A stretch of 64,000 bases of DNA. It comes from Deltaproteobacteria bacterium (GTDB lineage Bacteria > Desulfobacterota > DSM-4660 > Desulfatiglandales > HGW-15). Position numbers and translations under genes: made by a program. The stretch covers positions 1 through 64,000 of the forward strand of contig JAGVAP010000033.1 in the NCBI GenBank assembly GCA_020060215.1, given 5' to 3'. This document shows, piece after piece, positions 31,785 through 61,025 of the stretch (its first letter is position 1; each line of letters opens with the position of its first letter). The notes under the pieces are model-generated. The model was not told the DNA's origin. It worked only from the letters and a program-made list of their open reading frames with translations, and ran no database searches.

Positions 31785-32375
31785 TCACCCGCCCGGTTCT
31801 CCCCCGTGGCCCGGTCGAGGCGGACGCGGCCTTTGGGTCGCATAAGCCATGAACTCGGAGCAGTAAGGGCAGAGGGAGAGGTTTGTCTCGTCCAGATCGG
31901 AGAGGTTCCCGGAGTAATGCATGAGACAGCGTTTGTCCAAGCAGTGGCCCAAATTGAAGAGATGGCCCAGCTCGTGAACGGCTACCTTGAGGAGCCTCTC
32001 GACCACCTGATCGGGAGAGGCCTGAACCCTGTCGTCTGTCCCATGGAGCCTGTAGAGGGAGGCAAGGGCGAACCTTCCCCCCTCTTGGGCCTCTCCCAGC
32101 ACATGGGTGAAAATGGGGATGAAGAGGTCAACGTTCAGAACGCCGATCACCTTATCGAAACGCTCGTCCAAGGGGGTGGAGGCACATGCCTTGAGGATCG
32201 CGGCCGCATTGTACTGCCCCCGTTTCCGGTCAAAGGCAAAGGCGGGATTCGGGAGGGCGGGGATGATCTCCGCCTCGAGCTCCAGGCGGGTACGGATGAA
32301 GGCGGCGACACCCCGAAGTGCCGCTTGAGGCACATCGCCGAAGGGGACCACACCGATGAGCGGATGTCTGGTCAT
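31785..32375 (-). CDS. Archaemetzincin-type zinc metalloprotease
   Basis: A 196-residue member of the archaemetzincin (AMZ) family. The active-site HELGHLFNLGHC (HExxHxxGxxHC) is present, and the CxxxxC plus CPYC set that holds the second, structural zinc follows (LDKRCLMHYSG, SLCPYC). N-terminal sequence (IGVVPFGDVPQ) is normal for the family. It is last in a long minus-strand run behind a response regulator. No signal peptide is seen, so it would be cytoplasmic. Cleaved targets are unknown. Confidence 0.9.
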   Translation of the reverse strand: MTRHPLIGVVPFGDVPQAALRGVAAFIRTRLELEAEIIPALPNPAFAFDRKRGQYNAAAILKACASTPLDERFDKVIGVLNVDLFIPIFTHVLGEAQEGGRFALASLYRLHGTDDRVQASPDQVVERLLKVAVHELGHLFNLGHCLDKRCLMHYSGNLSDLDETNLSLCPYCSEFMAYATQRPRPPRPGHGGEPGG

Positions 32376-32385
32376 CGGGGGATGG

Positions 32386-33735
32386 TCAGGCGGGCCTTCT
32401 CAGCTGGAGCCGATTGATCATCTTGTGCAGACTCACCCGGTTGATTCCCAGGATCCTGGCGGATTCCGTAATGTTCCATCGCTGCTCTTCAAGGACCTCC
32501 TGGATGTAGCTCTTTTCCACCTCCCGGAGACTCCGCCCCCTGCTCTTGAATTCCGCGGGCGGGGGGTTCACAAAGGAGAAGTCCGCGATCTCCAGGGTCC
32601 GGGATTTTGAGAGCACCACCGCCCGCTCGATGGCGTTCTCGAGCTCCCGCACATTCCCGGGCCAGTCGTAGCGCATGAGGAAATCGATCGCCTCGGGTGT
32701 GACCTGGTCCACCTGCTTCTTGGTCTCCCTGCTGTACTTGCTCAGGAAGTGGTCGACCATCAGCGGAATGTCCTCCTTCCTTTTTCGCAGGGGAGGGATG
32801 TGGATGGTAATGACATTGATGCGATACAGGAAGTCCGCCCTGAACCGGCCTTCTCCAACCTCCTGCAGGAGGTCCCGCCTGGTGGAGGAGAGCAGCCTGA
32901 AGTCCACATCGATCGGTTCCCGATCCCCAACCCTCGTGATCTTTCTCTCCTCCAGGACCCGCAGAAGATCGACCTGCATCTTGGGGCTGATCTCCCCGAT
33001 CTCGTCCAGGAACAAGGTCCCTCCGGAAGCGACCTCGATAAACCCCTTGCGTGCCTGGGTGGCGCCTGTGAAGGCGCCCTTCTCATGACCGAAGAGCTCC
33101 GTCTCCAGGAGGGTATCGGGAAGGGCCCCGCAGTTCATGGCGATAAAGGGGCCCTTGGATCGAAGACTCTTGGCGTGAATCGCCTTGGCCACCAGTTCCT
33201 TGCCGGTCCCCGTCTCTCCTGAGATCAGCACCGAGGAGTCGCTTCGGGCCACCTCGGGGATGAGGTCGAACATCTGCCGCATGGCCGGGGATTGGCCGAT
33301 GATGTTGTCGAACCGCGTGATATCCTCCAGCAGGCCTTTGACGTACAGGTACTTCGACACCAGCTTCCGGTGATGGGCCACCTTTTCCAGCACCAGGGAG
33401 AGTTGATCGGGCTTGAAGGGCTTCAGGAGGTAGTCGCTCGCCCCCAGCTTCATCGCCGCGACGGAGGACTCGATGGAGCCGTATGCGGTCATGATGATGA
33501 CCGTGGTCCCGGGATAGCTTTCTTTGACCCGCCTCAGCACCTCCAGGCCGTCCATACGGGGCATCTTCATATCCAGGAAGAGGACCTCAAAGGGCCTCTC
33601 CTTCAAGAGCTCCAGGGCCCCCGGACCGGACGATGCCGCTTCCACGACATGGCCGGCCTTCTTGAACCAGTGGAACAGGGACTCACGGACGATCAGCTCG
33701 TCATCGACGATCATAATCCGCAATCGCTCATCCAT
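32386..33735 (-). CDS. NtrC-type sigma-54 response regulator
   Basis: A 449-residue response regulator: receiver (MIVDDELIVRES, phospho-Asp in VLFLDMKMP, KPF), AAA+ domain with GETGTGKE, an intact FGHEKGAFTGA loop and LFLDEIGE, and a C-terminal Fis-type helix-turn-helix (NITESARILGINRVSLHKMI). GGAGGGGG lies just before the ATG at 33735, which overlaps the end of the kinase gene (CATGGATGA). It is the partner of the kinase upstream. As the Hdr operon begins from a sigma-54 promoter at 44199, autoregulation of that operon by this protein is a reasonable prediction. Confidence 0.94.
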   Translation of the reverse strand: MDERLRIMIVDDELIVRESLFHWFKKAGHVVEAASSGPGALELLKERPFEVLFLDMKMPRMDGLEVLRRVKESYPGTTVIIMTAYGSIESSVAAMKLGASDYLLKPFKPDQLSLVLEKVAHHRKLVSKYLYVKGLLEDITRFDNIIGQSPAMRQMFDLIPEVARSDSSVLISGETGTGKELVAKAIHAKSLRSKGPFIAMNCGALPDTLLETELFGHEKGAFTGATQARKGFIEVASGGTLFLDEIGEISPKMQVDLLRVLEERKITRVGDREPIDVDFRLLSSTRRDLLQEVGEGRFRADFLYRINVITIHIPPLRKRKEDIPLMVDHFLSKYSRETKKQVDQVTPEAIDFLMRYDWPGNVRELENAIERAVVLSKSRTLEIADFSFVNPPPAEFKSRGRSLREVEKSYIQEVLEEQRWNITESARILGINRVSLHKMINRLQLRRPA

Positions 33736-35293
33736 GGTCCCCCTCCGCACCCTGACCGGCCAATGGAAATCGCAGGGAGAAGGTGGTCCCCTCTCCCTCC
33801 GTGCTCTGAACCTCGATCCGGCCGCCGTGATTCTTTACGACCCCATAGACGATGGAGAGCCCCAGGCCGGTGCCTTCTCCTTCTTCTTTGGTCGTGAAAA
33901 AGGGATCGAAGATCTTCTGGCGGTATGCTTCGGGGATCCCGCAGCCCGTATCGGCAACCGTGATCAATGCCTCTTTGCGGGCGGTATCGGCCCTCAGGAC
34001 CAGGCTCAAGGTTCCCCCTCTCGGCATGGCATCGACGGCGTTGAAGATCAGGTTCAGAAAACACTGTTGCAGCTGATTGACATCCCCTCTGATCATCAGG
34101 GGTTCTTCCGGGAAGTCGATCACCTGACGGATGTCCTGCAGGTCCAATCGATGGCGCGTCAGGGAGAGGACCGCGACGCACACGTCCTTGAGGCTCACAT
34201 CCTTCTCCTCCAGCGCAGACTCCCTGGCAAAGGAGAGGAGGCCGGAGATGATGGCGCCGCACCGCTCGAGTTCGCCGGACATGAGATCGAGATAATGCCT
34301 GAATGCGCCCAGATCGTCGGTCGAAGGGCTGCCCTGACGCAAGATGGACTGCATGAGACTGCAGAAGGTCAACATTCCATGGATCGGGTTGTTGATCTCG
34401 TGGACGCAGCTGGCGGAGAGCTTGCCGAGGGAGATCAACCGATCCTCCTGAACCACCCTGTTCAAATCGGTCTTCAGCTGCCTGACCCTCAGTTCCCAGC
34501 GGGTCGAGAGTTCATCGGTGATGTCTCTCCAGATCTCGATCACCCGTACGATCTCCCCCTCTGAATTGATCCGTACGGGGAACGTCTCTAGGTCACAGTA
34601 GTTCGTCCTCCCTCCATCCATGATATGTTCATGGATCGCATGGGCCGAGTGCCCGGTCCTCAGGGTCTCGACCATGGGACATCCCATCTCCGGCATCCAT
34701 TCCGAGCAGGGTGAGCTAAGGCCATGGGTGATTTCGTAGCAGTGACGGCCGATCACCTGCTCCCTCGGTTTGTTGACCGCCCTCAGGTAACCCTCGTTGG
34801 CCTCCAGGATGCTGAAATCCTGGTTCAGGACGACAATGCGTTCGTTGGACTGCTGGAGGAGAAACTCCCAGACCGCCTTCTCGAGCGTCACCTCCTTTTC
34901 CCTCGAACCCAGTTCCTGTTCGGACATCAAGAAGGCCTGGAACCATGCCAGCAGCAGGTGATCGATCACCCAGATGCCGCCTGGCCTCATCTGGAGCAGC
35001 TGCGAGAGCACATCCCGCCGGCGAGTCAGCTCGAGGACGCCGTCCAGATCGGCGATCTTGAAGATCTCGCTGCAGTCACGCGTGATCGGCAGGCCCATCT
35101 CCCGGGCGAGCTGCATCCCCTCGGCCTGGGGATCGATGTCGCAGACCGCCACGATATGGATATCCAGGTGGGGCAGCTCCACTTTCCGGAGAAACTCGAG
35201 AAAGGACCTGCAGGTCTCCCCGCCCCCTACGATGGCCAGATTCAGCCTCCGCTTCTGCGGGTCCTGAGACAGTCTTCCAAGGTCTTCTTCCAT
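33728..35293 (-). CDS. Sensor histidine kinase with N-terminal Rossmann-like domain and PAS
   Basis: A 521-residue cytoplasmic kinase. Residues 1-120 look like a nucleotide-binding Rossmann domain ([19 protein letters not shown], then [14 protein letters not shown]), followed by a PAS domain (about 145-265) with cysteines at SSPCSEW and MGCPMVE, a HisKA domain (H-box [16 protein letters not shown]) and an ATPase domain ([31 protein letters not shown]). A GGG-type N-terminus may sense NAD(H) or another dinucleotide, but this is inference. It overlaps the response regulator gene. The start has AAAGGGG upstream. It follows the hdrA gene by 85 bases on the same strand. Confidence 0.9.
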
Positions 35294-35377: not shown

Positions 35378-38300
35378 TCACATCTGATCGATCATGGCAA
35401 GTATCTGGGCATCGTCAAACCCCCTCAGCCGCACGGCACCGCTGCGGCAGGAGGCGGTGCACAGGCCGCATCCCTTGCACAATGCCGGATTGATCTCCAT
35501 CGCGCCGCTTTCCTTGTCCATGGCCGCACCGAAGGGGCACACCTCCATGCAGGTAGCGCACCGGCTGCAGAGGGCGGGATCGATCTCGGCGACCATGCCG
35601 CCCGCACGGATAGTGCCCGCGGCCAGGAAGCCCGCCGCGCGCCCTGCCGCGGCCAAAGCCTGCGAGATGCTTTCCTCCAGAGGCTTGGGGTGATGGGCCA
35701 GGCCGCAGAGGAACACCCCTTCGGCTGCGAAATCCACCGGCCGCAGCTTGACATGGGCTTCCGCAAAAAAGCCGTCCTCCTCCAGCGGGATCTTGAAGAA
35801 CCCGGCGGTGGCCCGGCCCTCTGCAGGGATGATACCGGTCGCCAGGACGAGCATATCTGCCTGGATGTGGATGGTTCTCTCCAGGACGGGGTCCAGGACC
35901 CCTATCTCGATCGTGTCTCCCTGCGCCGGTCGGACACGCGGTTTGTGCTGCACATCGTAGCGGATGAACAGGATCCCCTCTTTCCGGGCCCGGGTGTAGA
36001 GGTCCTCTTTCTCTCCATAGGTCCTCATGTCCCTGTACAGGACGGATATCCGCATCCCGGGATTGCGCCGGCGCAGCTCCAGGGCCGATTCCAGCGTGTG
36101 GGAGCAGCAGACCTTGCTGCAATAGGGCCGATCGGGCTCCCGCGAGCCCACGCATTGAATGAAAACCGCGGAGCCTGCCCTTTCGAGCATTTGGTCATGA
36201 TCCAGGAACCTCCGGTCCAGCTCCAGATGGGTCATGACCCGGGAATGGGTCCCATAGAGGTACTCCTTTGGTCTGTGCTCCCCTCCGCCGGTGGCGATGA
36301 CGGCGACCCCGTGCTTGAGGAGGACCTCACCGCGCCTGCCTCTGCGTGTGAGGGTGGAGACGAAGTTTCCCACGAACCCTTCGACCTTCGAGAGCTCGGT
36401 GGAGCGGTAAACGGCGATCAAGGGATCGGAATCCACCTCGCGGATGAGGTCGGACAGGTACTCCTGCACGGACACTCCTCGCCAGGGAGAAAACAGATGC
36501 CTGGCCGCGCCGCCAAGCTCCTCTTCCCGCTCCACCAGATGGACCCGGTAGCCCTGGTCCGCCAGGTTTTTGGCCGCCACCATGCCCGAGACGCCGCCGC
36601 CCAGGACAAGGGCCTCGGGAAACACCTCCAATGACTGCTCCCGGAGCGGCGACAGGAGAGCGGCCCTCGCAACCGCCATCCTTACCAGGTCCATGGCCTT
36701 TTCGGTGGCCGCGCCCGGGTCCCTGCCGTGGACCCACGAGGCCTGATTGCGGATGTTGGTCATCTCGAAGAGGTACTTGTTCAATCCGGCGTTGAGCAGG
36801 GTCTCCTGGAAGAGGGGCTCGTGGGTCTTCGGCGTGCAGGCGGCCACCACCACGCGGTTGATCCCTTCCTCCCGGATGATCCGCGACATCTTGATCTGGG
36901 TGTCCTGCGAGCAGGTGTAGAGATTGTCCTCTGCGTAGACCACGTGGGGGAGCGTTGTGGCATAGTCCCGAACGGCCGGCACATCAACCACGCCCCCGAT
37001 GTTGATCCCGCACCGGCACACAAAGACACCGATGCGGGGAGGTTCCCCCCTCACGTCCACCTCCGGGACCCCTTCAGGGGTCTGGGTTTTCGACCCCCTG
37101 CTCTCTTTCAGGAAACCGCTCGATGCGGCGGCCGCCGCAGAGGCCTCCATCACGGACTGGGGAATGTCCTTGGGGCCCTGGAAGGATCCACACACGTAGA
37201 TCCCGGTCCTGGAGGTGGAGACCGGATGGAAACGGCCGGTCCTGGCGAAACCATACCGGTCCAGCTCCACCCCCAGCCTCCGGGCAAGCTCCGCCTGCTC
37301 TTTGCCGGGTTCGAACCCCACGGAGAGGACCACCATGTCAAAGATCTCGTCCACAAAACCGCCCGCCTCGTTCGCATAGCGGATCTTGAGATCCCCCTCT
37401 CCGCACGGCTCCACGGTGTGGATGCGGGAGCGAATGAAACGAATATCGAGCTCCTCTTCCGCACGCCGGGCATACTGCTCGAACCCCTTGCCGCAGGTGC
37501 GCATGTCCGTGTAGAAGATGGCCGCGTCCAGAGTCGAGTGGCTATGGGACTTGGCGACCATGGCCTGCTTGACGGCGTAGGTGCAGCAGACGGTAGAGCA
37601 ATAGGGGTGCCCGGCCCCATCGCGGGTCCTCGATCCTACGCACTGCACCCAGGCGATCCGCCGCGGCTCCTCACGGTCATAGGGCCGCATCAGATGGCCC
37701 TTGAACGGGCCGGAACCGCTGAGCACCCTCTCAAACTCCAGGCTGGTGACCACATCGGGAGACTCGCGGTAGCCGTACCGCTCGAGCCCGGATGGGTCAA
37801 ATACGTCGCTGCCGGCCGCGACGATGACTGCGCCCACCTCCAGCGAACCCTCCCGGGGCCGGTCGCCGTACCGGACAGCCTCCGCCATGCACACCTTTTC
37901 ACAGAGGCCGCACCCGATGCAGGCATCCCGATCGATCACGTACGAGAGAGGCACCGCCTGCGCATACGTGATGTGGGTGGCCGACCTCAGGGCGAGGCCC
38001 CCGTTGAACCGGTCGACGGCGGTGACCGGACAGACGGTGCTGCATTGACCGCAACCGGTGCACTTCAACGGATCGATGTATCTCGGAAGGGTACGCAGCG
38101 CCACACGAAAGCGGCCCGGCTCCCCATCGAGGCCGATCACTTCCGTATCCGTGACCACGACGATATTGCGATGCCGGCCGACCTCGACCAGTTTCGGCGA
38201 GATGATTCACATCGCGCAGTCGTTGGTCGGAAAGGTCTTGTCCAGCCGGGACATGAGCCCGCCGATGGCAGGAGATCGGTCGACCAGGTAGACATAGAAT

Positions 38301-38398
38301 CCCAGGCCGGCAAGATCCAGGGCCGCCTGCATCCCGGCGATCCCCGCACCGACCACCATCAGCGCGCCCGTTTTTTCGCCCTTGTTGGACATGTTCAT
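35378..38398 (-). CDS. hdrA: Tandem HdrA-like selenoprotein (UGA at codon 64)
   Basis: A 1006-residue HdrA if TGA at 38209-38207 encodes Sec. Residues 1-63 hold the FAD motif ([13 protein letters not shown]) and end TNDCAM; then Sec and [10 protein letters not shown] follow, where cysteine is usual. Next come a two-cluster ferredoxin part ([23 protein letters not shown]), an HdrA cluster motif (CVGSR, then YCSTVCC), then a complete second HdrA: CRCGINIG domain, second FAD motif ([16 protein letters not shown]), second CVGSR/YCSKVCC motif and two more ferredoxin sets ([23 protein letters not shown]). A family member is usually around 650 residues. Start at 38398 has GGGGAGAG upstream; the ATG two codons later is an alternative. 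It works with MvhD-like electron carriers in the cytoplasm. Confidence 0.88.
38174..38191 (-). promoter_or_regulatory. Predicted SECIS stem-loop (hdrA at 35378)
   Basis: On the minus strand CTGGTC pairs with GGCCGG (with two G-U pairs) around the loop GAGGTC. The stem starts 15 nt past the UGA and GGU sits at +24 to +26. Confidence 0.7.
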
Positions 38399-38439: not shown

Positions 38440-39198
38440 TCAGCCCTCGCACCGTATAAACCTGGGCGTCGTCCCCTGGTAGGATTGAACCTCCGCCTCC
38501 CGGCGCCTTTCCAGTTCGCCCAAGCGCAGGGAGACGGTATGGACGGGCAGTCCGGTCGAGAAGGCAATCTCTCTGACCGACAAAGGGGCTTCCCGGATGG
38601 CCTCCGAGATCAGTCCCTCCACATAAGCCTCCTCCGCGGCCCGCTCCAGAAGCTTCCCGTAATCTTCTTCACGGACCCTTTCCCCATACACGTTGCCGTT
38701 GCGGGTCAGCGGAAGCGCTATTCCCATGAGCCAGCGCAGCCGCTGCGAGGTGAGGGCCTTTTCCGCGGCCGCCAGCTCTATCCCGTTCGCGGCGGGGTCG
38801 AAAGGCCCCAATTCCTGGATCCGTTCGCTGAACGCGGTCACATACTCCGCAAAGAGCCGGCCTTCGGCCGCACTCACCCAGCGAAGACAGAGACGGTCGC
38901 GGCCGATGCCGGAGCGTTCCAGCAGGTTTGCAACGACCTCCATCTCCTTCGCCACATGGACATTACCGTACAGGTAATGGCATTCTCCCATGTGTCACCC
39001 GGAGACGAAGATGCCGTCGAAACCGTTTCGCAAGCCGTTGATCACGAAGGCGGGGTCCACCCGGCCCGAGCACATGGTCCTGATCACCCGGATGGCCGGT
39101 GGGTATTGGATCCTGGAAACACCCGCCAGATCCGCGCCTGCGTACGCGCACCAGTTGCAGAGAAAGGCCAGGATCTTCGGTTCGAATGGCTCATTCAT
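38440..39198 (-). CDS. MvhD/FlpD-like selenoprotein (UGA at codon 68)
   Basis: A 252-residue iron-sulfur delta subunit of the MvhD/HdrA partner family when TGA at 38997-38995 is read as Sec. The first part has the family motif ([15 protein letters not shown], then TMCSGRVDP). It then runs into [16 protein letters not shown], where homologues have GCHxGDCHY. The rest ([20 protein letters not shown]) is MvhD-like and ends with a helix-turn-helix-like tail ([33 protein letters not shown]). The start at 39198 has AAAGGA upstream. The cluster it holds passes electrons to HdrA. The 42-base gap to the hdrA gene places both in one operon. Confidence 0.88.
38954..38993 (-). promoter_or_regulatory. Predicted SECIS stem-loop (mvhD-like)
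   Basis: CATTACC pairs with GGTAATG around TGTAC, and ACATGG pairs with CCATGT outside it. The apical loop covers +23 to +27 from the UGA, the same position as in the other three Sec genes, although it lacks the GGU. Confidence 0.65.
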
Positions 39199-39302: not shown

Positions 39303-42300
39303 TCAAAGGAAAAACGTCTCCAACAGCCGATCCCACCCGACTTCGGGAAAACTGCCGAAGAGATCGGGGACGGCTTCTCCTCCGGTCGCGGCAAGACGTT
39401 CGTACTCTTTACCGAGGAGCTGGAGGAGTTTCTGCGTCTCCCCCTCCATCCACCGCAGCCCTTGCTCGCCGGACAGGAGGCGACGGAGATCCCGATCGAG
39501 CAGGAGAGGCTCCAGGATGATGAGCCATCCCCGGCCATAAGGATCCTCGGAAACGATCTCCGGTTGGGCCAGGATGCTCCGGTTCACTTCGAAGACCCTT
39601 CCCGTCACGGGTGCAACGAGATCCGCCTCGTGTCCTCCCCTGGCATAGACCCAGCCCCTTCGGCCTTCATGCAGGAGGGCGCCTGTGGGTGGTACCCTCA
39701 GGGTCTCCGGACGGCCGAGCACCTTGGTGGTGAAATCGTCCACCCCGATCTTCAGCCTCCCTCCCCGCTCGACCGATACCCAGCTGTGACCGGAGTGGAA
39801 ATAACAGTCGCCGGCCATGCGATACCCCATGACGGAAGTGACCCTCCCGGCCCCGGAACGGCGGCGTCTCTTGAGATCCATGGCGTCTTCGCCCCCGGCG
39901 TGGATGGCCGCCAGGATCTCCCGGTCGCGGAAGCCCTTCATGTCGATCGCCTTCCGCGGACAAACGGCCGCACAGAGCCCGCAACCCTTGCAGAGTGCGG
40001 GGAGGCTTTCCGCGCTGCACCCCCTGCCGTCCGACTTCACCAGCCTCATGGCGCCGAAGGCACAGGAGGCCTCGCAAAGGCCGCACCCGATGCAGCGCTT
40101 CTCGTCGACGACCGAGATCATGGGTTCGATCTCCACGTGCCGTTGCGTGAGCACCATCGAGGCCCGCATCGCCGCCGCCTGTGCCTGGGCGATCGATTCA
40201 TCGATGGGTTTGGGGTAGTGGGCCAGGCCGCAGACGAAGACCCCCTCTGTCGAGCCATCCACCGGCCGCAGTTTGGCGTGGGCTTCCATGAAAAAGCCCT
40301 CCTGGTTCAACGGCACCTTGAAGAGCCTGGCTACGGGTCCATGATCGGCGGGCACGATGGCCGTGAGGAGGTTCACGTAATCGACATCGACGCTGACCTG
40401 CATGCCCAGGACCGGGTCCCTGGCCGTGATGCGCACCTTCTCCCTCCCGCCGGAGAGGACCATTTGGAGCGAGGGCTTCTCCCGGGGGGAGTACCGTACG
40501 AAGGTGATGCCGAGTTCGCGAGCCCGCCGGTAGAGCCGCTCACGCCGGCCGTAGCTTCTCATGTCGCGATAGAATATGAAGACGTCCAGCCCTGGACGGC
40601 GCTCCTTCAGGGAAACGGCCTTCATGAGGGAGGCGGTGCAGCAGACGCGCGAGCAGTACGATCTCTCCCCTTCGCGCGACCCCACACAGAGAATGAAGGC
40701 CACCGCGTCGGACTGATTGAGCCGTTCCGGTTCCGCTTCGAAGAGTCTTTCCAGTTCGTGCCAGCGCGTTACCCTTTCCGTCTGCCCGTAGAGGTATTCC
40801 TCCGTCTCGAGGGGGCGCCCCCCTGTGGCGAGGATCGTCACCCCGTGGGAGAGCTCCCGGACTCGTTCATGGCTCTCCACCGTGGTGGTGAAGTTCCCGA
40901 CGAAGCCCTTCACGTCCTTGACGCGAGTGGAGAGGAAGAGTTCGATGTTCCGATGTCTCCGGACCTGGTCCGTCAACCGGGCGAGGTAACCCTTCACATC
41001 CTCACCGGTCCATGTCCGTGAGAGGTTCACGGCATATCCGCCCAGGCGGGCATCCTGTTCGACGAGGTAGGTCCTGAATCCCTGATCTGCGAGGTTGAGC
41101 GCAACGTTCAATCCGGCGACCCCCCCGCCGATCACCAGGGCCGAGGGGTGGACCTTCAACCGGAGCGGGGAAAGGGGCTCTGAAAGGCAGGCTTTGGAAA
41201 CGGCCATCCGCACAAGGTCCTTGGCCTTCTGCGTCGCCTCCCGGGGGGCATCCTTGTGGACCCAGGCGACCTGGTCGCGGATATTCGCGAACTCGAAGAG
41301 ATGGCGGTTGAGGCCGGCTTCCTCCAGGGTCTCCTGGAACAAGGACTCATGCGTCCTGGGGGAACAAGCGGCGATCACGATGCGATTAAGCCGCTGCGCC
41401 CTCACGGCATCCCTGATCAGCTGCTGGGTGTCCTCGCTGCAGGTGAACCTGTTGTCGGCTGCATAGACCACTCCCGGGAGCGTCCGGGCATAATCCCTCA
41501 CCGCCTTCACATCGACGACGGTTCCGATGTTTACACCGCAGTGGCAGACCAATACTCCGACGCGGGGGTCCTCCCCGTCGACGCATCTCTCCTCCGGACA
41601 GCGCTTCCGACGAGCTCCCCGGTTTGGGGCATCCCTGAGCAGGGCCGCACACTGGCTTGCCGCCGCGGACGCTTCCGTAATGGACTGGGGGATGTCTTTC
41701 GGTCCCGAAAAGCCCCCGCAGACGAAGATCCCGGGCCTCGAGGTGCGGGTCGGGGCCGTGCAGCCGGTCTGTGCAAAGCGGTCCGGATCGAGGGCGAGTC
41801 CCATCTTCTCCGCAAGCTTGACCGTATCTTCCGACACTTCGAGGCCGAGCGAGAGCACGACCATGTCGAAGAGCTCCCATCGCGGCCGGCCCTCCCCGTC
41901 CACATAGGCGAGTTTGAGCGCATCTTCGTTCGGGCCGGAGGGCTCCACAGTGTGGACGCGCGATCGGATGAGGCGGATCCCGGCATCCTTTTCCCCACGT
42001 GCGCAGTACGGTTCGAACTCCTTCCCATGGGTGCGGAGGTCCATGAAGAAGATCGCCGCATCCAGATTCGGGGCGTGCTCCTTCGCCACGATCGCCTCCT
42101 TGATCGCGGCCATGCAGCACACGGAAGAACAGTAGGGGTGGTTCCCGTCCCTGGACCCCACGCACTGGAGAAAGGCGATCTTCCGCGGCTCTTGTTGGTC
42201 CGAGGGCCGTCTCAGGTGACCCTGATAGGGTCCCGTCGAGCTGAGGATCCGCTCGAATTCAAGACTCGTCACCACGTTCTGAAGTCTCTTGTATCCGTAC

Positions 42301-42920
42301 CCCCCGGCCGCCCGGGCATCCACCGGCCGCAGCCCAGGGGCGAGGAGAATCGCCCCCACGTCGATTTCGTACCGCTTCTCCTGCTGGGAAAAATCGATGG
42401 CCTGGCTCGGACAGACCTTCTCGCATGCGCGGCACTTTCCCTTCGTCAAGTAGAGGCAGTGATCCGGGTCGATCAGGTACTTGAGGGGCACGGCCTGCGG
42501 ATACCGGACATGGGCGGACGTTCTCTTGCCGAGCCCCTGGTTGTAATCATCCTCCACGCGGCTCGGGCATTTCTCTGCGCAGAGGCCGCAGGCGATACAT
42601 CTGCCGGGGTCGACATAGCGCGGCAGCTCCCTGATCTCGACAGTGAAATCTCCTTCAGCACCGCCGACGGACTCCACCTCCGCCAACGTGTGGAGGAGGA
42701 TATTGCGGTTCCGGCCGACCTCGACCAGTTTGGGCGAGAGGATTCACATGGCGCAATCATTCGTGGGAAAGGTCTTGTCCAGGCCGCTCATCATGCCACC
42801 GATGGCGGAATCCTTCTCAACCAGATGCACCTGGAAACCAGAACCGGCCAGATCCAGGGATGCCTGGATACCGGCAATTCCTCCGCCCACCACCATGACC
42901 GATCCTGCGCTATCCTTCAT
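39303..42920 (-). CDS. hdrA: Tandem HdrA-like selenoprotein fused to a GcvH-like domain (UGA at codon 59)
   Basis: A 1205-residue fusion when TGA at 42746-42744 is Sec. The beginning is [19 protein letters not shown], then [20 protein letters not shown], a ferredoxin part ([22 protein letters not shown]), CVGSR/YCSSVCC, the CHCGVNIG domain, a second FAD motif ([16 protein letters not shown]), CVGSR/YCSRVCC and ferredoxin sets ([23 protein letters not shown]). From about residue 1015 a GcvH-like domain follows ([39 protein letters not shown]). The position of the lipoyl-lysine (ESVKA in E. coli GcvH) reads ARGGH here, so it is not lipoylated. The start at 42920 overlaps the end of the GcvH-like gene. 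Two stems suggest Sec insertion but the ribosome site is weak. Confidence 0.87.
42711..42728 (-). promoter_or_regulatory. Predicted SECIS stem-loop (hdrA-gcvH)
   Basis: CTGGTC and GGCCGG pair around GAGGTC, identical to the loop in the other hdrA gene and at the same +22 to +27 place after the UGA. The bases between UGA and stem differ slightly, so the loop is conserved beyond what the flanking codons require. Confidence 0.7.
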
Positions 42921-44076
42921 GGTTGTCCCAAGCTCCTCGCTTCACCTTCGTCCGAAGAATCTTCTGCACGAGCCCGTCCCAGTCCGCGCCGGGCAGGCTG
43001 CCGAACAGGTCTTCCGCCGGTTCTCCCCCGGTGGCGGCCAACCGCTCGTACTCGGGGCCGAGGGAGTCGAGCAGAAGGCGATTTTCATTTTCCATCCACG
43101 CGAGGCTTTCCTCCCCGTAGTAAAGGGGTTTCAGCTCCTGTCTGAGGAAGGACGGCTCGATCAACATCATCCATCCGTGGAAGTAGGGATCCTTGTGACA
43201 GGCGGAGGGATCTTCCAGGACCTTTGCATTGACCGCCACCACCTTCCCGGTCAGGGGGGACTGCACCGGCGCCCGGTGCCCGTTCCGGGCGATCACAAAC
43301 CCCACCTCGGACTGCCTCACGGAGTCTCCCTCCGCCGGCAGCAAGAGCGCCCTCGGTTCCCCGAACACCTTTGCCGCAAAGTCGTCCATCCCGATGCGGA
43401 CATGGCCGCCCCGCTCCATGTGAGCCCACGCATGCCCAAGGTGGTAGTAAAAATCCCCCGCTACCTTGAAGCCGGAGGCGAGCGTCACCCGGGGATGGGT
43501 CAAGGGTTCGTACCCCGACCCGGCCGCCTGCTCGCTGTATACGGGACAGCGAAAGCACTCATAGTGCCCCGGACAGTTCAGGGGCCCGCCTCTTTTCGCC
43601 ATCGAGGCATAGACGCACGGTCCCGGGACCGTTTCGAACTCACGACTGATCCGGGCCGCCCAGCCGCCCACCGCACCCTTTCTCCCGGGGCGCACCTCTT
43701 CTCCCATGGCCCGGCGCATGTTCATGTCGAACTCGCAGTGATCGCAGTCGCTGTCGTTGTCGCACAACTTGAAATTGATGATGCCGGCCTTCATCCAGAT
43801 GCACTCTTCCCTGGCCGAGGGGGGAACGGGCGGATGTTTCTTCAGGACCTCGTACGGTGCGAACACGATCCCGTCATGATGCAAATAATCCACGTATTGG
43901 GTGCCGGTCGCTCTGACCACCTCTTCGTAATCAAACGGTTGATCGACCGAGATGGTGCTCCTCCCCGACTGCAGGAAGATGTTTTGGGGCCCTTTTGGAG
44001 AGGAATCCCTCGCCCCGTTTTCAGGGGCCGGCCCCTTCCCCCTGTTCCTCAGCCTGACCACGGGTTTTTTCTTCAT
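42910..44076 (-). CDS. GcvH-like protein with Cys-rich N-terminus, no lipoyl-lysine
   Basis: A 388-residue protein opening the Hdr operon. The N-terminal half has a cysteine-rich stretch ([25 protein letters not shown], and [13 protein letters not shown] further on), so it probably binds iron-sulfur clusters or zinc. The C-terminal 190 residues are GcvH-like ([39 protein letters not shown]) and match the end of the next protein. The lipoyl site reads ARNGH instead of the ESVKA pattern, so lysine is absent again. AGGGAGG precedes ATG 44076, 112 bases or so after a sigma-54 transcription start. Its last bases overlap the hdrA start. No glycine cleavage P- or T-proteins are near. Confidence 0.8.
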
Positions 44077-44198
44077 GACCGAAACCTCCCTTTCTCCATG
44101 CGACGTTCACGCTCCCCCCTTTTATCCCGGGGCATCTGATTGCGCTCTTTCAGGATGATTGGGGAAGAGGAGGCAAACAGATTTCATCCTTCCGCCAG

Positions 44199-44214
44199 TG
44201 CAACGAGGATGCCA
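44199..44214 (-). promoter_or_regulatory. Sigma-54 promoter of the Hdr operon
   Basis: On the minus strand TGGCATCCTCGTTGCA matches TGGCA(C/T)-N5-TTGCA with GG and GC ten bases apart. A start near 44188 would give a leader of about 112 bases to the GcvH-like ATG. Confidence 0.8.
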
Positions 44215-44393
44215 GGGAAGGGGGAGGATTGAAACAATTCAGTAACCGCTTGGTGCTTCCCGTAATTTCCGGCGGCGGCGAAGATCCGCGTTGTCCCCGC
44301 GGGTGGCACGCCTGAAATCTTTGGCTACATCGCCGATGGGGTCGACCGGGAAAACCGGGCGGATTGCAAAAGAAATGAACCACCTGGCGGCGT

Positions 44394-44577
44394 GTAGCCT
44401 TGCGCTACGCGGATGTAGCCCGGGTGCATCGCGGGAGGGAAAAGCCGCGCCCCTGTCTGGGCGCGGATGCGTTGCATCACCCGCCGTTCGTCCGGAATCA
44501 CAAAACGGCCACGTCATCGCATGAAGGCCGCGGCCCAGGGGAGCGCCTTTGCACCCATGGGTAGCATCGGCGCTACC
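44394..44577. promoter_or_regulatory. Two GTAGC...GCTAC palindromes, candidate activator sites
   Basis: GTAGC-CTTGC-GCTAC (44394-44408) and GGTAGC-ATCGGC-GCTACC (44560-44577) share both arms. The right one is about 100 bases from the cooS promoter and the left about 180 bases from the Hdr promoter, within usual ranges for enhancer sites. Binding by the NtrC-type regulator is a guess. Confidence 0.4.
44421..44483. repeat. Composite REP-like hairpin
   Basis: CGGGTGCATCGC pairs loosely with GCGTTGCATCACCCG, and inside CCGCGCCC pairs perfectly with GGGCGCGG around a CTGTCT loop. It resembles dispersed palindromic repeats with ATGTAGCCCGGGTGC-like sequence. Confidence 0.5.
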
Positions 44578-44674
44578 AGTGCCGGGCTCTTTGTCCCGGG
44601 CCGGAATTCTTGCCACTTTCCTAAGTTCCGTTGATTTCATCGTTTCCGCCCCTGCCCCGATTGGGACCTGAGCC

Positions 44675-44690
44675 CGGCACGGAGATTGCT
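44675..44690 (+). promoter_or_regulatory. Sigma-54 promoter of cooS
   Basis: CGGCACGGAGATTGCT has GG and GC ten bases apart and matches TGGCACG-N4-TTGCT apart from its first base. It lies 42 bases before the cooS ATG, the same spacing as the promoter at 28023 to its gene. Confidence 0.8.
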
Positions 44691-44732
44691 GGTGCCAGCT
44701 TGCAAGGACGGCTCAAGAAGAGGAGGAGCGAG

Positions 44733-46784
44733 ATGATGACGGAAGAAGTCAAAGGGAAAGCGGCCGAGCCCAAAGAGAAGGTGAAAAGGTCGGCAAAGCC
44801 GGGCGAATTGACCGCGGACGCGGCCAGCGCGATGATGATCGAACGATCGCGGGGGATGGGAGTGGAGACCATCTTCGACCGCGCCGCTTCCATGAAGCCG
44901 TGCAACATCGGCGTTCAGGGGACCTGCTGCAAGAACTGTTCACAGGGACCCTGCAGGCTTCCGCTGACCAAGGAGGTTGAGCAGGGAGGGGAAGACACAC
45001 GCAAAGGGCTCTGCGGGGCGACCGCCAGTACCATTGCGGCAAGGAACTTCGCCCGCATGGTCGCGGGTGGCGCCGCAGCACACTCGGACCACGGAAGGGG
45101 AGTTGCGGAGACCTTTCTGGCCGCAGCTCGGAAAGAGACGCACGACTACCGGATCAAGGACACGAAGAAGCTCCTGGAGATCGCGCCGGATTTCGGTGTA
45201 GGGATCACGGTGGAGGGAGAAGGCGGCGAAGTGCTTCAGCGCGATATCGATGAGATCGCGGTGGAAGTGGGGGAAAAGGCCCTGGCCCAATGGGGGCAGC
45301 AGGACGGCGAGGTTTGCACCGCCCGGAGGGCGCCCAAGCCCCTTTACGAGAACTGGAAAAGGCTCAGCGTGGTTCCGAGGGGGATCGACCGCGAAATCGT
45401 CGAGATCATGCACCGGACCCATATCGGCGTGGATCAGGACTACGAGAACATTGTTTCGCAGTGCACGAGGGCGGCAATCGCGGACGGCTGGGGAGGCTCC
45501 ATGATCGCAACGGATCTGCAGGATGTCCTTTTCGGCTGCCCCTATCCGATCAAGAGCTCCGCCAACCTGGGCGTGCTCAAGGAAGACCATGTCAATCTCG
45601 TCATCCACGGGCATGAGCCGCTCCTGAGCGAGATGATCGTCACCGCCGCGGAAATGGAGGAGATGGTCGAGTATGCAAAACAAAAAGGGGCCAAAGGCAT
45701 TCAGCTCAGCGGCATCTGCTGCACGGCCAACGAGATCCTGATGAGGCACGGCGTTCCTCTGGCCGGCAATTTCCTGCAGCAGGAACTTGCCATCGTGACC
45801 GGGGCGGTCGATGCCATGGTGGTCGACGTGCAGTGCATCATGGAGAACATCGCGAATGTGGCCGAGTGCTTTCATACCCAGGTCATCACCACAAACCCCA
45901 AGGCCAGGATCGCCTCCGGGCATACCATTCATATCGAGTTCGACGAGCACACCGCCTTCGAGGATGCCAAGAGGATCGTAAGGACCGCGATCGACAATTT
46001 CCCTCACCGAAACAAGGAGGTCATCATCCCGAAGTCGATCTCCCCCCTCATCGCAGGGTTCAGTTATGAGGCGATCAACTATCACCTGGGCGGCACCTTC
46101 CGCGGATCCTATACCCCGCTGAACGACAACATCATCAACGGCCGGATCCGGGGCATCGGCGGCGTGGTCGGATGCAACAACGCCCGCACCATGCATGACG
46201 ACGGCCATCTGACCGTCGTGAAGGAATTGATCAAGAATGACGTCATTGTGCTTACCACGGGGTGCAACGCCATCGCCTGCGCAAAGGCCGGTCTTCTCAC
46301 CCCCGAATCGGCCGGTGTCTTTTGCGGGCCGGGCCTGGCCGAGGTGTGTGAAACCGTGGGAATCCCTCCGGTGCTCCACATGGGATCGTGCGTGGACAAC
46401 AGCCGGATCCTCATGGCGGCGACCGAGGTGGTCAAGGCAGGAGGGCTCGGGAGGACCATCGCCGATCTTCCCGCGGCCGGGTCGGCGCCTGAGTGGATGA
46501 GCGAGAAGGCGATCAGCATCGGCCACTACTTCGTCGTATCGGGTGTTTACACCGTATTCGGCGTAACGCTGCCGGTAAGCGGCTCGCCCGTGTTTGAAGA
46601 TTACCTCTACAACAAGCTCGAGGGGATTTATGGCGGCATGTGGGACCTGGAGGCGGATCCGGTGAAGCATGCGCAGAAGATGATCTCCCATATCAACGAA
46701 AAGCGCAAGGCCCTGGGGCTCGACAGGACGCGCGAGAGGGTGCTCATGGATATGGCCGCCCGGCAGAAGCTGGAGGCTGCATAA
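44733..46784 (+). CDS. cooS: Anaerobic carbon-monoxide dehydrogenase catalytic subunit
   Basis: A 683-residue Ni-Fe CO dehydrogenase that interconverts CO and CO2. Cluster motifs are clear: the B- and D-cluster region CNIGVQGTCCKNCSQGPC and a following GLCGAT, then the C-cluster region (ICCTANEIL, GCNNAR, TTGCNAIACAK, GSCVDNSRI). GGAGGAG precedes the ATG. No cooF, cooC or acetyl-CoA synthase gene is adjacent, so this is a monofunctional CooS. The natural electron partner may be the Hdr/MvhD operon across the divergent sigma-54 control region, or the ferredoxin subunit encoded downstream. Confidence 0.96.
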   Translation: MMTEEVKGKAAEPKEKVKRSAKPGELTADAASAMMIERSRGMGVETIFDRAASMKPCNIGVQGTCCKNCSQGPCRLPLTKEVEQGGEDTRKGLCGATASTIAARNFARMVAGGAAAHSDHGRGVAETFLAAARKETHDYRIKDTKKLLEIAPDFGVGITVEGEGGEVLQRDIDEIAVEVGEKALAQWGQQDGEVCTARRAPKPLYENWKRLSVVPRGIDREIVEIMHRTHIGVDQDYENIVSQCTRAAIADGWGGSMIATDLQDVLFGCPYPIKSSANLGVLKEDHVNLVIHGHEPLLSEMIVTAAEMEEMVEYAKQKGAKGIQLSGICCTANEILMRHGVPLAGNFLQQELAIVTGAVDAMVVDVQCIMENIANVAECFHTQVITTNPKARIASGHTIHIEFDEHTAFEDAKRIVRTAIDNFPHRNKEVIIPKSISPLIAGFSYEAINYHLGGTFRGSYTPLNDNIINGRIRGIGGVVGCNNARTMHDDGHLTVVKELIKNDVIVLTTGCNAIACAKAGLLTPESAGVFCGPGLAEVCETVGIPPVLHMGSCVDNSRILMAATEVVKAGGLGRTIADLPAAGSAPEWMSEKAISIGHYFVVSGVYTVFGVTLPVSGSPVFEDYLYNKLEGIYGGMWDLEADPVKHAQKMISHINEKRKALGLDRTRERVLMDMAARQKLEAA

Positions 46785-47134
46785 TCCGGGAAAACCTTTC
46801 CAGGAGACCGCCGAGAGGACCGACGAGGAAGGAAAAAGCTGCAAATTTCAACAAGACTATGGCCGAGCAGGCCCGGCAGGGAGTATACTCCGGGATTCTG
46901 AGGGGGCTGATACGCCCCGGAGCCGGGTCGAACGGGGGCTGAAGGTCGGCGCCATCGATCCACGCGGTGACCGGTCCTATGTCGATACCATGCGCGAGAA
47001 GGCGCGTGCCACCATCGGATCGGCTCCGGAGGGGATCTGCCGAAGGTGGAATCGCCGAGCGTTCACGAGAGCGAGATCCAGCGCGAAGGGGTGCCGTAAG
47101 CATTCGACAAACCAACGGGAAGGAGAGGGGACAA
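46785..47134. other. Spacer after cooS
   Basis: About 350 bases with no supported gene. A GC-rich hairpin (CTCCGGG, then GGGGC-TGATA-CGCCCC, then CCCCGGAG) lies near 46890-46922 and might end the cooS transcript. Confidence 0.55.
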
Positions 47135-47881
47135 TTGCGCCGAGAGATTCAATCCCAGGAGGATCTGAACCACGAGGAAACCGCTCGCCTGGTGATCGAT
47201 TACATTCACCGAATGGTGATGCATCACGCCATGTGGTACGCGGAGATTCGGCATCAGCTGGGCAGGGACAGGGCGGAAGAGATACTCACGAAGGCCTACG
47301 AGCGGGGGTACGGGATCCAGATGAAGCGACTCGCCGACACACTGGGATTCAAGATGAAGGGAGACATTCCCCAGCCTCTGCTCGACCTGTCCAAGGATGC
47401 GTTGAACACCCTCAAGGAGAATATCGCCCTCAACTGGATCGCCAACGACGGCGTGTGGTTTCAGGCTGTGGAATTCGGCAGGAACATGATCGATGCCAAG
47501 CGGTGCAACGATTCCTGCTGGGCCCACTTCTCCCCCTTTGAGGCGTGGAGCATCCGGCGGTTCCTCGATCTGCCGCCCAGCCCCGGCCTGGAGGGGCTCA
47601 AGAAGGCCCTGGGCTTTCGCCTTTATGCCACGGTCAACGTCCAGTCCGCTGTGGAGGAGTCTCCCAAAAGTTTCGTCTTCCAGATGAACGACTGCCGCGT
47701 GCAATCGGCCAGAAAGCGAAAGGGCCTGGAAGACTATCCCTGCAAATCCGTCGGGATGGTCGAGTATCCCTATTTTGCGGAATCCATCGATCCGAGGATC
47801 AAGACCGAGTGCATCGGCTGTCCCCCCGACGCGCACCCGAACGAGTGGTACTGCGCCTGGAGGTTCAGTATCGATGAATGA
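47135..47881 (+). CDS. DUF6125 family protein
   Basis: A 248-residue protein sharing a C-terminal domain with the gene at 9412: CRVQSARKRKGL, YPCK, DPRIKTECIGCPPDAHP and WRF. The N-terminal half is helical and contains HEETARLVIDYIHRMVMHHAMWY, probably absent or shorter in the other copy. Cysteines and histidines in the shared part suggest a metal site. A TTG start at 47135 is chosen because AAGGAGAGGGG precedes it and no ATG lies nearby in frame. It stands between cooS and the molybdoenzyme, so a redox link is possible but not shown. Confidence 0.8.
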   Translation: MRREIQSQEDLNHEETARLVIDYIHRMVMHHAMWYAEIRHQLGRDRAEEILTKAYERGYGIQMKRLADTLGFKMKGDIPQPLLDLSKDALNTLKENIALNWIANDGVWFQAVEFGRNMIDAKRCNDSCWAHFSPFEAWSIRRFLDLPPSPGLEGLKKALGFRLYATVNVQSAVEESPKSFVFQMNDCRVQSARKRKGLEDYPCKSVGMVEYPYFAESIDPRIKTECIGCPPDAHPNEWYCAWRFSIDE

Positions 47882-48343
47882 GGATGATGCATGTCCGAGT
47901 TGAGGACAGCAAGACGAAGGTAGTTCTCTCCCTTGTAAGGTGCCTTCATCCGGTTTCATGCAAGCAAGGATGAAGACGATACCCGGCACGGAGATGAGAA
48001 GGGTTTCACATCCTCAAACGCGCTGCTTTGATGTCATGGGACACGAAGTGTCCAAGAACCCCCTGATCCAATCGCTTTTCCTGGGCCACTCCGGATCCGG
48101 AAGCGCCATTGTCTCCCCTCATGACCACCCGTATGTCAACCTCCCGTTTACAGACCCTGCCCACTTGACCTTGTATCTTCCTTGATCGAAGAACGAAAAC
48201 AACTTGATACGCGACCTTGTGCCCGTGAAGGACCTGGCACGAAGTTTGATCTTCACGTAAGCGTGTGCACACGCCAACGAGGAGGCTTTGCATGCGGCAT
48301 TCATCCCATGATCATGGCCTCCAAAACGCGGGAGGTGAGTCCT
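47882..48343. other. Intergenic region before the molybdoenzyme
   Basis: About 460 bases. It has a sigma-54-like site at 48235-48250. The short frames in it show no ribosome site or family pattern, and no other structure stands out. Confidence 0.5.
48235..48250 (+). promoter_or_regulatory. Weak sigma-54-like promoter
   Basis: TGGCACGAAGTTTGAT fits TGGCACG-N4-TTG but ends GA where the -12 GC is expected. It is about 100 bases before the molybdoenzyme ATG. The missing C makes it uncertain. Confidence 0.3.
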
Positions 48344-50923: not shown

Positions 50924-50938
50924 GGGAGGTGACAGACC

Positions 50939-51628
50939 ATGAATGAATACGCCATTCTGCTAGACAGCACGTACTGCACCGGCTGCAACAGCTGCGCCTA
51001 CAGGTGTATACAGGAGTTCAGGGAGCACGACCAGGCCGCAAAGGGGCTTTTCCGGACCTTCGTGACCACCAACGACGGAGGTCTCCACCACAAGCGGTGC
51101 ATGCATTGCCTGGATCCGGAATGCGTGAAGAACTGCCCGGTGGAGGCATTGACCAAGTCCGATTACGGAGCGGTCCTCTACAATGCCAAGACCTGCATCG
51201 GCTGCAAGACGTGCGCCGAGGTATGTCCCTTTGATATCCCCCAGTTCGAGGAGACATCCGAGAAGATCGTCAGGTGCAACCTGTGCGCCCACCGGATCGG
51301 AAACGGCAAGCAGCCGGCCTGCGTAGAGGTCTGTCCCACCGGTGCCTTGCAGTTCGGGGAATATCTTTCCATCGTGGAAAGGGCGAAGTCTCTCTCCAGG
51401 AAGCACCGGTTGCACCTCTACGGACTGGAGGAGGCCGGCGGCACCCATCTCATCGTTGTCACCAAAGACGCCCCGGCACTCGCCGGCTATCCCACTGTAT
51501 CCAACGCGAGCGGGAGTGCTTCGGGTAAGGCGCTTCCGGCGCTGGCTGCATTAGCGGTCGGTGGCATCCAGAAATGGAGCGAACGAAAATCTCTCGTTCA
51601 GGCTGAAGGCCGGGCAAACGATCATTGA
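50939..51628 (+). CDS. Four-cluster ferredoxin subunit of the molybdoenzyme
   Basis: A 229-residue electron-transfer subunit like PsrB/DmsB. Cysteine groups CTGCNSCAYRC, CMHCLDPECVKNCP, CIGCKTCAEVCP and CNLCAHRIGNGKQPACVEVCP give four [4Fe-4S] clusters. After the last cluster about 80 residues follow, with a short hydrophobic part (ALPALAALAVGG) that might anchor it weakly. GGGAGGTGACAG precedes the ATG, 15 bases after the catalytic subunit. It lacks its own signal and would be carried through the TAT system with the catalytic subunit. Confidence 0.94.
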   Translation: MNEYAILLDSTYCTGCNSCAYRCIQEFREHDQAAKGLFRTFVTTNDGGLHHKRCMHCLDPECVKNCPVEALTKSDYGAVLYNAKTCIGCKTCAEVCPFDIPQFEETSEKIVRCNLCAHRIGNGKQPACVEVCPTGALQFGEYLSIVERAKSLSRKHRLHLYGLEEAGGTHLIVVTKDAPALAGYPTVSNASGSASGKALPALAALAVGGIQKWSERKSLVQAEGRANDH

Positions 51629-51633
51629 GCCGC

Positions 51634-51675
51634 CTTACGGCCGGAGGAGGGCAGGCTGCATCCTCCGGCCGTAAG
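51634..51675. promoter_or_regulatory. 15-bp perfect intercistronic hairpin
   Basis: CTTACGGCCGGAGGA (51634-51648) and TCCTCCGGCCGTAAG (51661-51675) are perfectly complementary with a 12-base loop. It begins five bases after the ferredoxin stop and is followed by no T-run. It could protect the upstream mRNA or slow transcription into the chaperone gene. Confidence 0.7.
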
Positions 51676-51696
51676 CCAACCACATGGTGAACGCCA

Positions 51697-52344
51697 ATGA
51701 AAACGATAGAGGACAGACTGAGAATCGTGGAAGGGAAGAGCGCTCTTTTCTCCCTGCTGTCACAGGCCCTGAATTATCCCGACGGGGATCTGGAGGAAAA
51801 GGTTTCAAGCGGCGGTTTCGGCCAGGGCCTTGCCGATGCCCTACGGCCTTTTTGCACGAACGGGCTCCTCCAGGAGTTGGAGAGCCTGAGGGATCTCGGC
51901 CCCGGCGGACCGCCCGAGGACAGGGAAGAAAGGCTTAATCGATGGGAAAGGGACTACACCTGGATGTGCTTTGCCTCCAAGCCGCGCCTCGTCCACCTCT
52001 TTGAATCCGTGTACCGGGAAGGAAAACTTCTCCAGGAATCGACCTTCGAGATCGCCAGGCTCTACTACGAGGCCGGCCTGAGAATCGAGGAAGGCTTCCA
52101 ACTCCCGCCCGACCACATCGCCGTGGAACTCGAGTGCATGGCCTATCTCCTGTACCAGGAGGCAGAGGCCCTGAGACACGGGGACAGGGACAAAGGCCGC
52201 TGTGCCCGGCGACTCCAGGAGGGCTTGCTCGAAAAGCATCTCCGACCATTCGGTCTCTCATTTTCCGAAAGGATGGAGAAACACGCAAAGAGCGATTTCT
52301 ATCGGATGATGGCCAGGGTCCTGAGGGAGACGCTCAAAGAGTAG
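51697..52344 (+). CDS. TorD/DmsD-like molybdoenzyme chaperone
   Basis: A 215-residue all-helical chaperone of the TorD/DmsD/NarJ group. Family-type features are ALFSLLSQALNYPDGDL at the start, ERDYTWMCFASKPRLVHLFESVYREG in the centre, and LPPDHIAVELECMAYLLYQEAEAL (the LPPDHI-ELEFM pattern). It helps fold and proofread TAT export of the molybdoenzyme. It follows the large hairpin by 21 bases. It ends eight bases from the convergent metallo-hydrolase. Confidence 0.9.
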   Translation: MKTIEDRLRIVEGKSALFSLLSQALNYPDGDLEEKVSSGGFGQGLADALRPFCTNGLLQELESLRDLGPGGPPEDREERLNRWERDYTWMCFASKPRLVHLFESVYREGKLLQESTFEIARLYYEAGLRIEEGFQLPPDHIAVELECMAYLLYQEAEALRHGDRDKGRCARRLQEGLLEKHLRPFGLSFSERMEKHAKSDFYRMMARVLRETLKE

Positions 52345-60426: not shown

Positions 60427-61025
60427 TACTTTCAGGTCGCGGGAAATCCTCCGGCCGAAGCCGGAGAGGAAGTTGCGCCGTCGCGATTTCCCGGCCAGGA
60501 ATGATCGCGCGGATGCGACTCTGCGCCTCCTTTGTGTCCATTGCATTTTTCCCCTGTCAGCCCCAAGCCGTTAAACATGCTGTCATTAGGAATCTTGGGC
60601 GTTGTTTTCGTTCGAAACGGCACATGGATTGCTCCGATCCTTCATGGCGAGCCACTCCTCTGCGTCGCCACCCCTTTGGGGGGCGACTGGGATTTTCGAA
60701 GGATGGTGGGATTATGGTCACTGCGCATTCCTTGCCTCGGAAGCACGGGGAAAGATTCTACGCGAGTACCGACGGAGGCGACGCCCGAAACCTTTCCTGG
60801 CGCTGGTCAAGCAGGCCCAGGAATAGATGGGAATCGAAATCTTTTCCCTCAGGCCGTCCCAATGCTCCACCCATCCTACGGGGCCTATGATGCATACCCC
60901 TACCCCTCATCCTTACCCTGGGATATATCTCCGCTTCGGAGGGCCGCGGGTGTATTATCCTGCTTCTGGAGAGGAACACGGCCGTTTTCTTTCTGTGAAC
61001 GCCTTACCGCAAAAGGAGGCTCCCT
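60427..61025. other. Intergenic region with hairpin, no convincing gene
   Basis: About 600 bases. Near the left end CGGGAAATC (about 60440) and GATTTCCCG (about 60484-60492) pair around an inner CTCCGGC/GCCGGAG stem. The rest has several short frames, none with a family pattern; a small one at 60602-60826 ends in an arginine-rich tail and is not accepted. Confidence 0.5.

Follow-up and report, generated by a model that had tools for sequence, protein, structure and literature searches.

In a 64,000-nucleotide stretch of contig JAGVAP010000033.1 from a Deltaproteobacteria bacterium (hereafter the window), an operon for heterodisulfide reductase (Hdr) proteins and cooS, the gene for the catalytic subunit of an anaerobic carbon monoxide (CO) dehydrogenase, lie on either side of a shared intergenic stretch. 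Are the two transcribed under one sigma-54-dependent regulator, and to which signal would that regulator answer? A first-pass annotation had placed outward-facing sigma-54 promoters between them and proposed a circuit coupling CO oxidation to Hdr. Our answer, which we consider likely as a whole, is a divergent sigma-54 region from which the operon's own regulator drives the Hdr operon and probably cooS, with a kinase that most likely senses a dinucleotide and not CO. At the level of sequence, sigma-54 control of the Hdr operon is well supported, because its promoter and a pair of enhancer-like sites recur together with one regulator subgroup. The NtrC-type regulator and two-component system encoded in the operon probably control this promoter, and shared control of cooS is likely, apparently as a feature specific to this organism.

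The two predicted elements are present and point outward, away from the intergenic stretch: TGGCATCCTCGTTGCA toward the Hdr operon and CGGCACGGAGATTGCT toward cooS (Table 1). Elements were scored by their match to TGGCAYNNNNNTTGCW, with GG and GC obligatory and a maximum of 11, and on both sides these dinucleotides stand in a consensus context (11/11 for Hdr, 10/11 for cooS). TGGCATCCTCGTTGCA alone in the window reaches 11/11, where 0.09 such matches are expected from order-1 shuffles of the 64 kb on both strands; matches of at least 10/11 number eight, the Hdr and cooS elements included, versus 1.73 in such shuffles. When the intergenic stretch was shuffled 2000 times, no outward pair with elements within 250 bp of its two ends arose. 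A plain consensus count allowing two mismatches gave 23 sites versus 21.6 expected, and promoters are not told from noise by count alone.

Relatives of the gcvH-like gene that opens the operon were found in 193 GTDB loci, the best 80 of which were compared. A gene for an M54 peptidase lies within 800 bp of a regulator gene in 50 of these 80; among the 50, the gcvH-like gene is within 3.5 kb of the M54 gene in 47 and a kinase gene within 800 bp of the regulator gene in 43, and five (L062, L064, L065, L069 and L077) are, judging by record titles, outside Desulfobacterota. A sigma-54 element of at least 10/11 precedes the first gcvH-like gene in 47 of 76 cases in loci L001-L063 (29 being 11/11) and in 28 of 29 cases in L081-L110, two sets that overlap in genomes (e.g. 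L015/L089, L006/L084, L010/L086, L017/L093 and L055/L085). Among control genes of L001-L063 the element was found in 0 of 143 (M54 0/46, response regulator 0/45, histidine kinase 0/35, HdrA2 0/17). The operon from the gcvH-like to the M54 gene is complete in two other genomes, G042 and G043, and in G001 it runs to the regulator gene, where the locus ends. All three have rpoN, and all three carry the sites together with an element (11/11 in G001, 10/11 in G042 and in G043). A 10/11 element and one site resembling the inner upstream activator site (UAS2, see below) also lie about 0.9 kb before an HdrA frame in G037 (L148); the link is uncertain, and this locus was left out of the counts.

Upstream of the element, loci with a regulator like that of the window carry sites resembling GTAGCC-AAAA-GC[AT][AT]C, usually near -205 and -125 (80 bp apart) or near -225 and -125 (100 bp apart), and in six relatives an extra site lies 22 bp farther out than the one near -205. 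A site pair at 80 or 100 bp occurs in 19 of the 27 regions of a subgroup (0.0 expected from shuffles) versus 0 of 46 other regions. The subgroup was picked after a first scan, and the site matrix was seeded with 11 relatives' sites from it, so that subgroup scores are partly circular; the sites of the window were left out of the matrix. In most members the regulator is 61-73% identical to that of the window. Four (L008, L012, L063 and L071) have no regulator gene in the stretch examined, nor do the short stretches L089 and L081, L089 being from the same genome as L015, where the regulator is present. The recognition helix reads NRVTLH in 25 of 26 listed regulators of at least 61% identity and in none of 32 below that value (NRVSLH in the window), and this shared helix would tie the regulator to the site. 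In the three operon-bearing genomes the exact motif occurs four times, always at a gcvH-like/Hdr promoter. Comparison supports the predicted Hdr promoter, the enhancer-like pair and the regulator subgroup.

On the Hdr side of the window, the two best-scoring sites, the candidates UAS1 and UAS2, form a pair at -194 and -114, 80 bp apart, of a kind that arose in 0 of 5000 shuffles; UAS2 was absent from the first-pass annotation. The two GTAGC palindromes proposed by the first-pass annotation were recovered, and they are the only exact GTAGC-N4..7-GCTAC palindromes in the window (0.01 expected). One, at 44394, is the UAS1 candidate; the other, at 44561, faces cooS, and its centre lies 106.5 bp from the cooS element, compared with 107 bp for UAS2 and the Hdr element. 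Under a pattern loosened post hoc, GWWGC-N3..7-GCWWC, 4 of 10 places in the window fall in the intergenic stretch.

The cooS gene appears to be a newcomer at this position. Its product, aligned to 6t7j, has the C-cluster His and Cys, the Lys and the Cys motifs of the B and D clusters (the assignment of residues to metal ligands being our assumption), and it scores above the TIGR01702 cut-off, as a nickel CO dehydrogenase should. Its neighbours are the Hdr operon and a gene for a DUF6125 protein, and acsB, acsC and acsD are not adjacent, as they would be in an operon for CO dehydrogenase/acetyl-CoA synthase (CODH/ACS). We examined the best-scoring 30 of 83 cooS matches, scanning up to 300 bp upstream of each match. 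In 18 of the 30 an upstream gene has the same RIHKR-like end, and in one of these (L145) that gene was identified as AcsD; three further relatives have another gene end that we take for AcsD, and in the others the end differs or escaped automated recognition. In G069, cooS lies between genes scoring as acsD and acsB; in G043, an acsB-type gene follows it, and the cooS and gcvH-like loci are 1.9 Mb apart. The window cooS, up to 87% identical to these relatives, looks like the gene of a CODH/ACS-type enzyme moved, or copied, beside the Hdr operon, since the cooS of relatives stands elsewhere, in two cases with acs genes.

Several observations, on the cooS or on the Hdr side, weigh against our answer. 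The cooS element reaches 10/11, and 1.73 matches of that score or better are expected per window; an element of at least 9/11 lies just upstream in 0 of the 30 cooS relatives. The first-pass annotation had looked to conserved gene order, and this holds for the Hdr module in the two complete genomes; the pairing with cooS was not seen, none of the 80 gcvH-like loci, often cut by contig ends, having a CooS match. A first gcvH-like gene lacks the element in 29 of the 76 cases of L001-L063, and the closest gcvH-like relatives (55-61%) fall outside the locus comparison. The Hdr sites of the window score 10.1 and 8.9, and those of relatives up to 24. Of 5000 shuffles, 129 produced a single site of at least 10, and scores of 8.9 or higher are reached at no fewer than 10 other places of the window. 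Genome-wide, the motif is not enriched in the three operon-bearing genomes (19 matches with up to one mismatch versus 26 for the reversed control); since these very sites supplied the pattern, only exact matches are informative there. None of the first 80 gcvH-like loci has an exact GTAGC..GCTAC palindrome, the sites of relatives ending mostly in GCAAC or GCATC, and the spacer of the cooS palindrome has six bases where those of relatives have five. Eight related genomes hold nine other GTAGC-N5/6-GCTAC places, 0 to 2 per genome; six were examined (five N6, one N5) and had no sigma-54 element nearby; L176 has one 10/11 element, more than 2 kb off.

The points on the cooS side would suit an arrangement in which the regulator acts on the Hdr promoter alone, with a cooS element that matches by chance or belongs to another activator and a cooS gene brought nearby through rearrangement only. 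Besides the score and the six-base spacer, two other 10/11 elements of the window, at 28023-28038 and 60618-60633 (+), begin with CGGCAC as the cooS element does, and a second sigma-54 activator is encoded at 25964-27421. The pairing of cooS with Hdr was also not seen in the loci compared. The search for relatives with the same gene pair covered 85 genomes of one order, 395 of the phylum (with the gcvH-like protein at E <= 1e-75 and with a CooS relative), 389 of another class (with P0004 at E <= 1e-100), plasmids and viral contigs; it gave no gcvH-like match above 47% identity, and cooS neighbours were inspected in the first 30 loci. However, the cooS element ends 42 bp before the start codon, and the window-wide shuffle rate gives, by arithmetic, an expectation of about 0.002 matches of at least 10/11 for the cooS strand of the 150 bp before the gene; its palindrome, one of two in 64 kb, stands at the same distance as UAS2. 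We give independent control of cooS a minor though real chance. Of the proposed circuit, sigma-54 control of the Hdr operon is well supported, recurring as it does in relatives, and the coupling of cooS is partly supported, being credible in the window and not seen in the relatives examined.

Two further explanations would remove the palindromes or the neighbourhood from consideration. GTAGC-bearing repeats occur in other bacteria, the palindromes are GC-rich, and 43500-45500 holds five terminator-like hairpins (2.7 expected), one overlapping 44567-44585. That the palindromes are such repeats, of the repetitive extragenic palindromic type, or terminators instead of operators is nevertheless scarcely credible to us, with two exact copies in 64 kb and distances to the sigma-54 element that are conserved in relatives; a repeat family would have more copies than the eight related genomes show. 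A misassembly with its join in the intergenic stretch would account for an arrangement seen in no other genome, and the junction at 44500 ranks 90 of 96 for tetranucleotide difference. In 1-kb steps, however, the peak of that difference falls within the Hdr operon, at 43000, and the difference between the whole left and the whole right side (0.094) is not high among seven splits, which makes misassembly very unlikely; GTAGC-type sites are, moreover, found toward both genes.

For the pairing of regulator and site, the direction of regulation, the co-control of cooS and the signal, we infer the following under joint control from the divergent region. The kinase would phosphorylate the NtrC-type regulator encoded next to it, which would bind the GTAGC-type enhancer sites and contact RpoN polymerase at TGGCATCCTCGTTGCA, switching on the genes for the gcvH-like protein, HdrA-GcvH, FlpD, HdrA, kinase, regulator and M54 peptidase. 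With the regulator gene inside its own target operon, a positive feedback loop would result. On the other side, cooS would be under the other sigma-54-like element, served by a GTAGC palindrome of its own, and the same regulator probably serves both promoters, because this palindrome lies at the same distance from its element. Through its N-terminal Rossmann-like domain the kinase most likely senses an NAD(H)-like dinucleotide in the cytosol, with the PAS domain as a second input. The Rossmann-like domain has the glycine-rich loop and the acid after strand 2 of a Rossmann fold, presumably the dinucleotide-binding residues, and 18 of 20 aligned kinases retain the glycine-rich motif; the input may thus be a dinucleotide and not CO. 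CO as signal or inducer, as the first-pass annotation had it, is unsupported, and nothing found points to it.

Table 1. Genes and candidate control elements of the divergent region and the Hdr operon.
Feature	Coordinates	Strand	Remarks
M54 peptidase	31785..32375	-	last gene of conserved module, 10 bp past regulator
NtrC-type response regulator	32386..33750	-	receiver, sigma-54 AAA+, Fis-type helix-turn-helix INRVSLHKMINR
Histidine kinase	33728..35293	-	Rossmann-like domain, PAS, HisKA, HATPase
Second HdrA (HdrA2 type)	35378..38398	-	selenocysteine (Sec) candidate TGA 38207-38209
FlpD/MvhD-type protein	38440..39198	-	Sec candidate TGA 38995-38997
HdrA with C-terminal GcvH-like domain	39303..42920	-	Sec candidate TGA 42744-42746
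gcvH-like protein	42910..44076	-	8 invariant Cys in N-terminal part; no lipoyl Lys in GcvH-like part
Sigma-54 promoter element, Hdr operon, TGGCATCCTCGTTGCA	44199..44214	-	11/11; like elements upstream of relatives' gcvH-like genes
UAS2 candidate, Hdr promoter, GTAGCCAAAGATTTC	44314..44328	-	starts 114 bp upstream of element; second-best intergenic site, relatives-only matrix
UAS1 candidate, Hdr promoter, palindrome GTAGC-N5-GCTAC	44394..44408	-	starts at -194, 80 bp from UAS2
UAS0-like site GTAGC-N6-GCATC	44415..44430	-	22 bp beyond UAS1; poor score in N5 matrix
GATGC-N3-GCATC palindrome, weak candidate	44466..44478	+	centre 203 bp upstream of cooS element; pattern loosened post hoc
Palindrome GTAGC-N6-GCTAC, candidate cooS activator site	44561..44576	+	centre 106.5 bp upstream of cooS element
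Sigma-54-like element, cooS, CGGCACGGAGATTGCT	44675..44690	+	10/11
cooS/acsA-type anaerobic CO dehydrogenase catalytic subunit	44733..46784	+

The operon products mostly match their first description. Kinase and NtrC-type regulator are both encoded, the latter with all the domains of its class; the operon does not end with them, as had been thought, the M54 gene being the last. The HdrA and FlpD reading frames contain three in-frame TGA codons (NDCAM-TGA twice, VSG-TGA-HMGEC once), at what we take to be the known Sec places of these proteins, which fits the predicted selenoproteins. Neither GcvH-like domain has the lipoyl-accepting Lys (ARNGHRAP and ARGGHEAD in the window), in agreement with the claim that they are unlipoylated: a profile alignment to 1onl sets the Lys of VESVKTA opposite the Gly of RNGH. 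Lys occupies this column in 0 of 30 aligned gcvH-like relatives, P0003, P0019 and P0040 having one two residues on. The eight Cys of the N-terminal half are invariant in 30 of 30 sequences, which makes a metal or Fe-S site in the gcvH-like protein likely. The family is present in more than one phylum, with tandem copies in several relatives. In L001, L005, L010 and L055, the receiver domain of the regulator has a short match with HdrA-like matches on both sides, which suggests a receiver protein inside these Hdr clusters.

A wider reading, possible but more doubtful, is that the locus exemplifies a widespread redox-to-transcription module. A soluble NAD(H)-reading kinase, a dedicated NtrC-type regulator and an M54 protease would act through one sigma-54 promoter with a paired enhancer, the targets being a Cys-rich GcvH-like protein that is not lipoylated and the electron-bifurcating machinery of GcvH-HdrA, and cooS would have been captured in this lineage. 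If so, a captured Wood-Ljungdahl CO dehydrogenase would link the supply of low-potential electrons to flavin-based bifurcation, the two increasing and decreasing in step. Within Desulfobacterota, and in the five loci outside it, the M54 and regulator genes are again found paired and with a gcvH-like gene, and cooS seems newly under this module here.

Electron bifurcation by Hdr complexes has a central place in the energy conservation of sulfate reducers, and the literature surveyed says little on how transcription of these complexes is controlled; this locus offers a concrete candidate circuit of promoter, enhancer-like sites, regulator and kinase with a likely ligand. Genes controlled by CooA or RcoM likewise place CO dehydrogenase under dedicated transcriptional control, but these are CO-binding haem activators, whereas sigma-54 with a Rossmann/PAS kinase would act here. 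In sHdr-LbpA systems, GcvH-like proteins are encoded with Hdr-like proteins and LbpA is lipoylated, unlike both window domains. In Desulfovibrio vulgaris (PMC4641369), the majority of NtrC-type sigma-54 regulators act on one to four operons, the regulator gene is often beside the target promoter, and enhancer motifs consist of half-sites. A dedicated regulator would fit that range; a term search of the main text of that study found no mention of Hdr, heterodisulfide, CODH, carbon monoxide or glycine cleavage. Desulfobacterium autotrophicum, a sulfate reducer, resembles the window in a Sec-containing HdrA adjoining mvhD, but the passages of PMC2702500 examined have no GcvH-like gene or sigma-54 Hdr control ('glycine cleavage' 0 matches). 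Syntrophic sulfate reducers also have Hdr genes beside carbon-fixation (Wood-Ljungdahl) genes, in metF-HdrABC and other HdrABC clusters, while the sections of PMC10553843 consulted make no mention of GcvH, CO dehydrogenase, FlpD or sigma54. Titles and abstract starts in the open-licence literature yielded no description of the gcvH-like/kinase/regulator/M54 module or its motif, and it is this module and its promoter layout that we regard as new.

Elsewhere in the window, no Rfam family matched at gathering scores. The second sigma-54 activator (PAS and AAA+, + strand) has 10/11 elements upstream at 25438 and 25537, and the element at 28023 precedes a radical-SAM/NBP35-NifX/NifU-like cluster. 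Downstream of cooS, 46967-52344 (+) encodes the DUF6125 protein, a molybdopterin oxidoreductase, a 4Fe-4S protein and a NarJ-like chaperone. The DUF6125 protein and the oxidoreductase had no match in the 30 cooS loci, which extend at most 1.5 kb beyond cooS; the best NCBIfam match of the oxidoreductase is PhsA, far under the cut-off.
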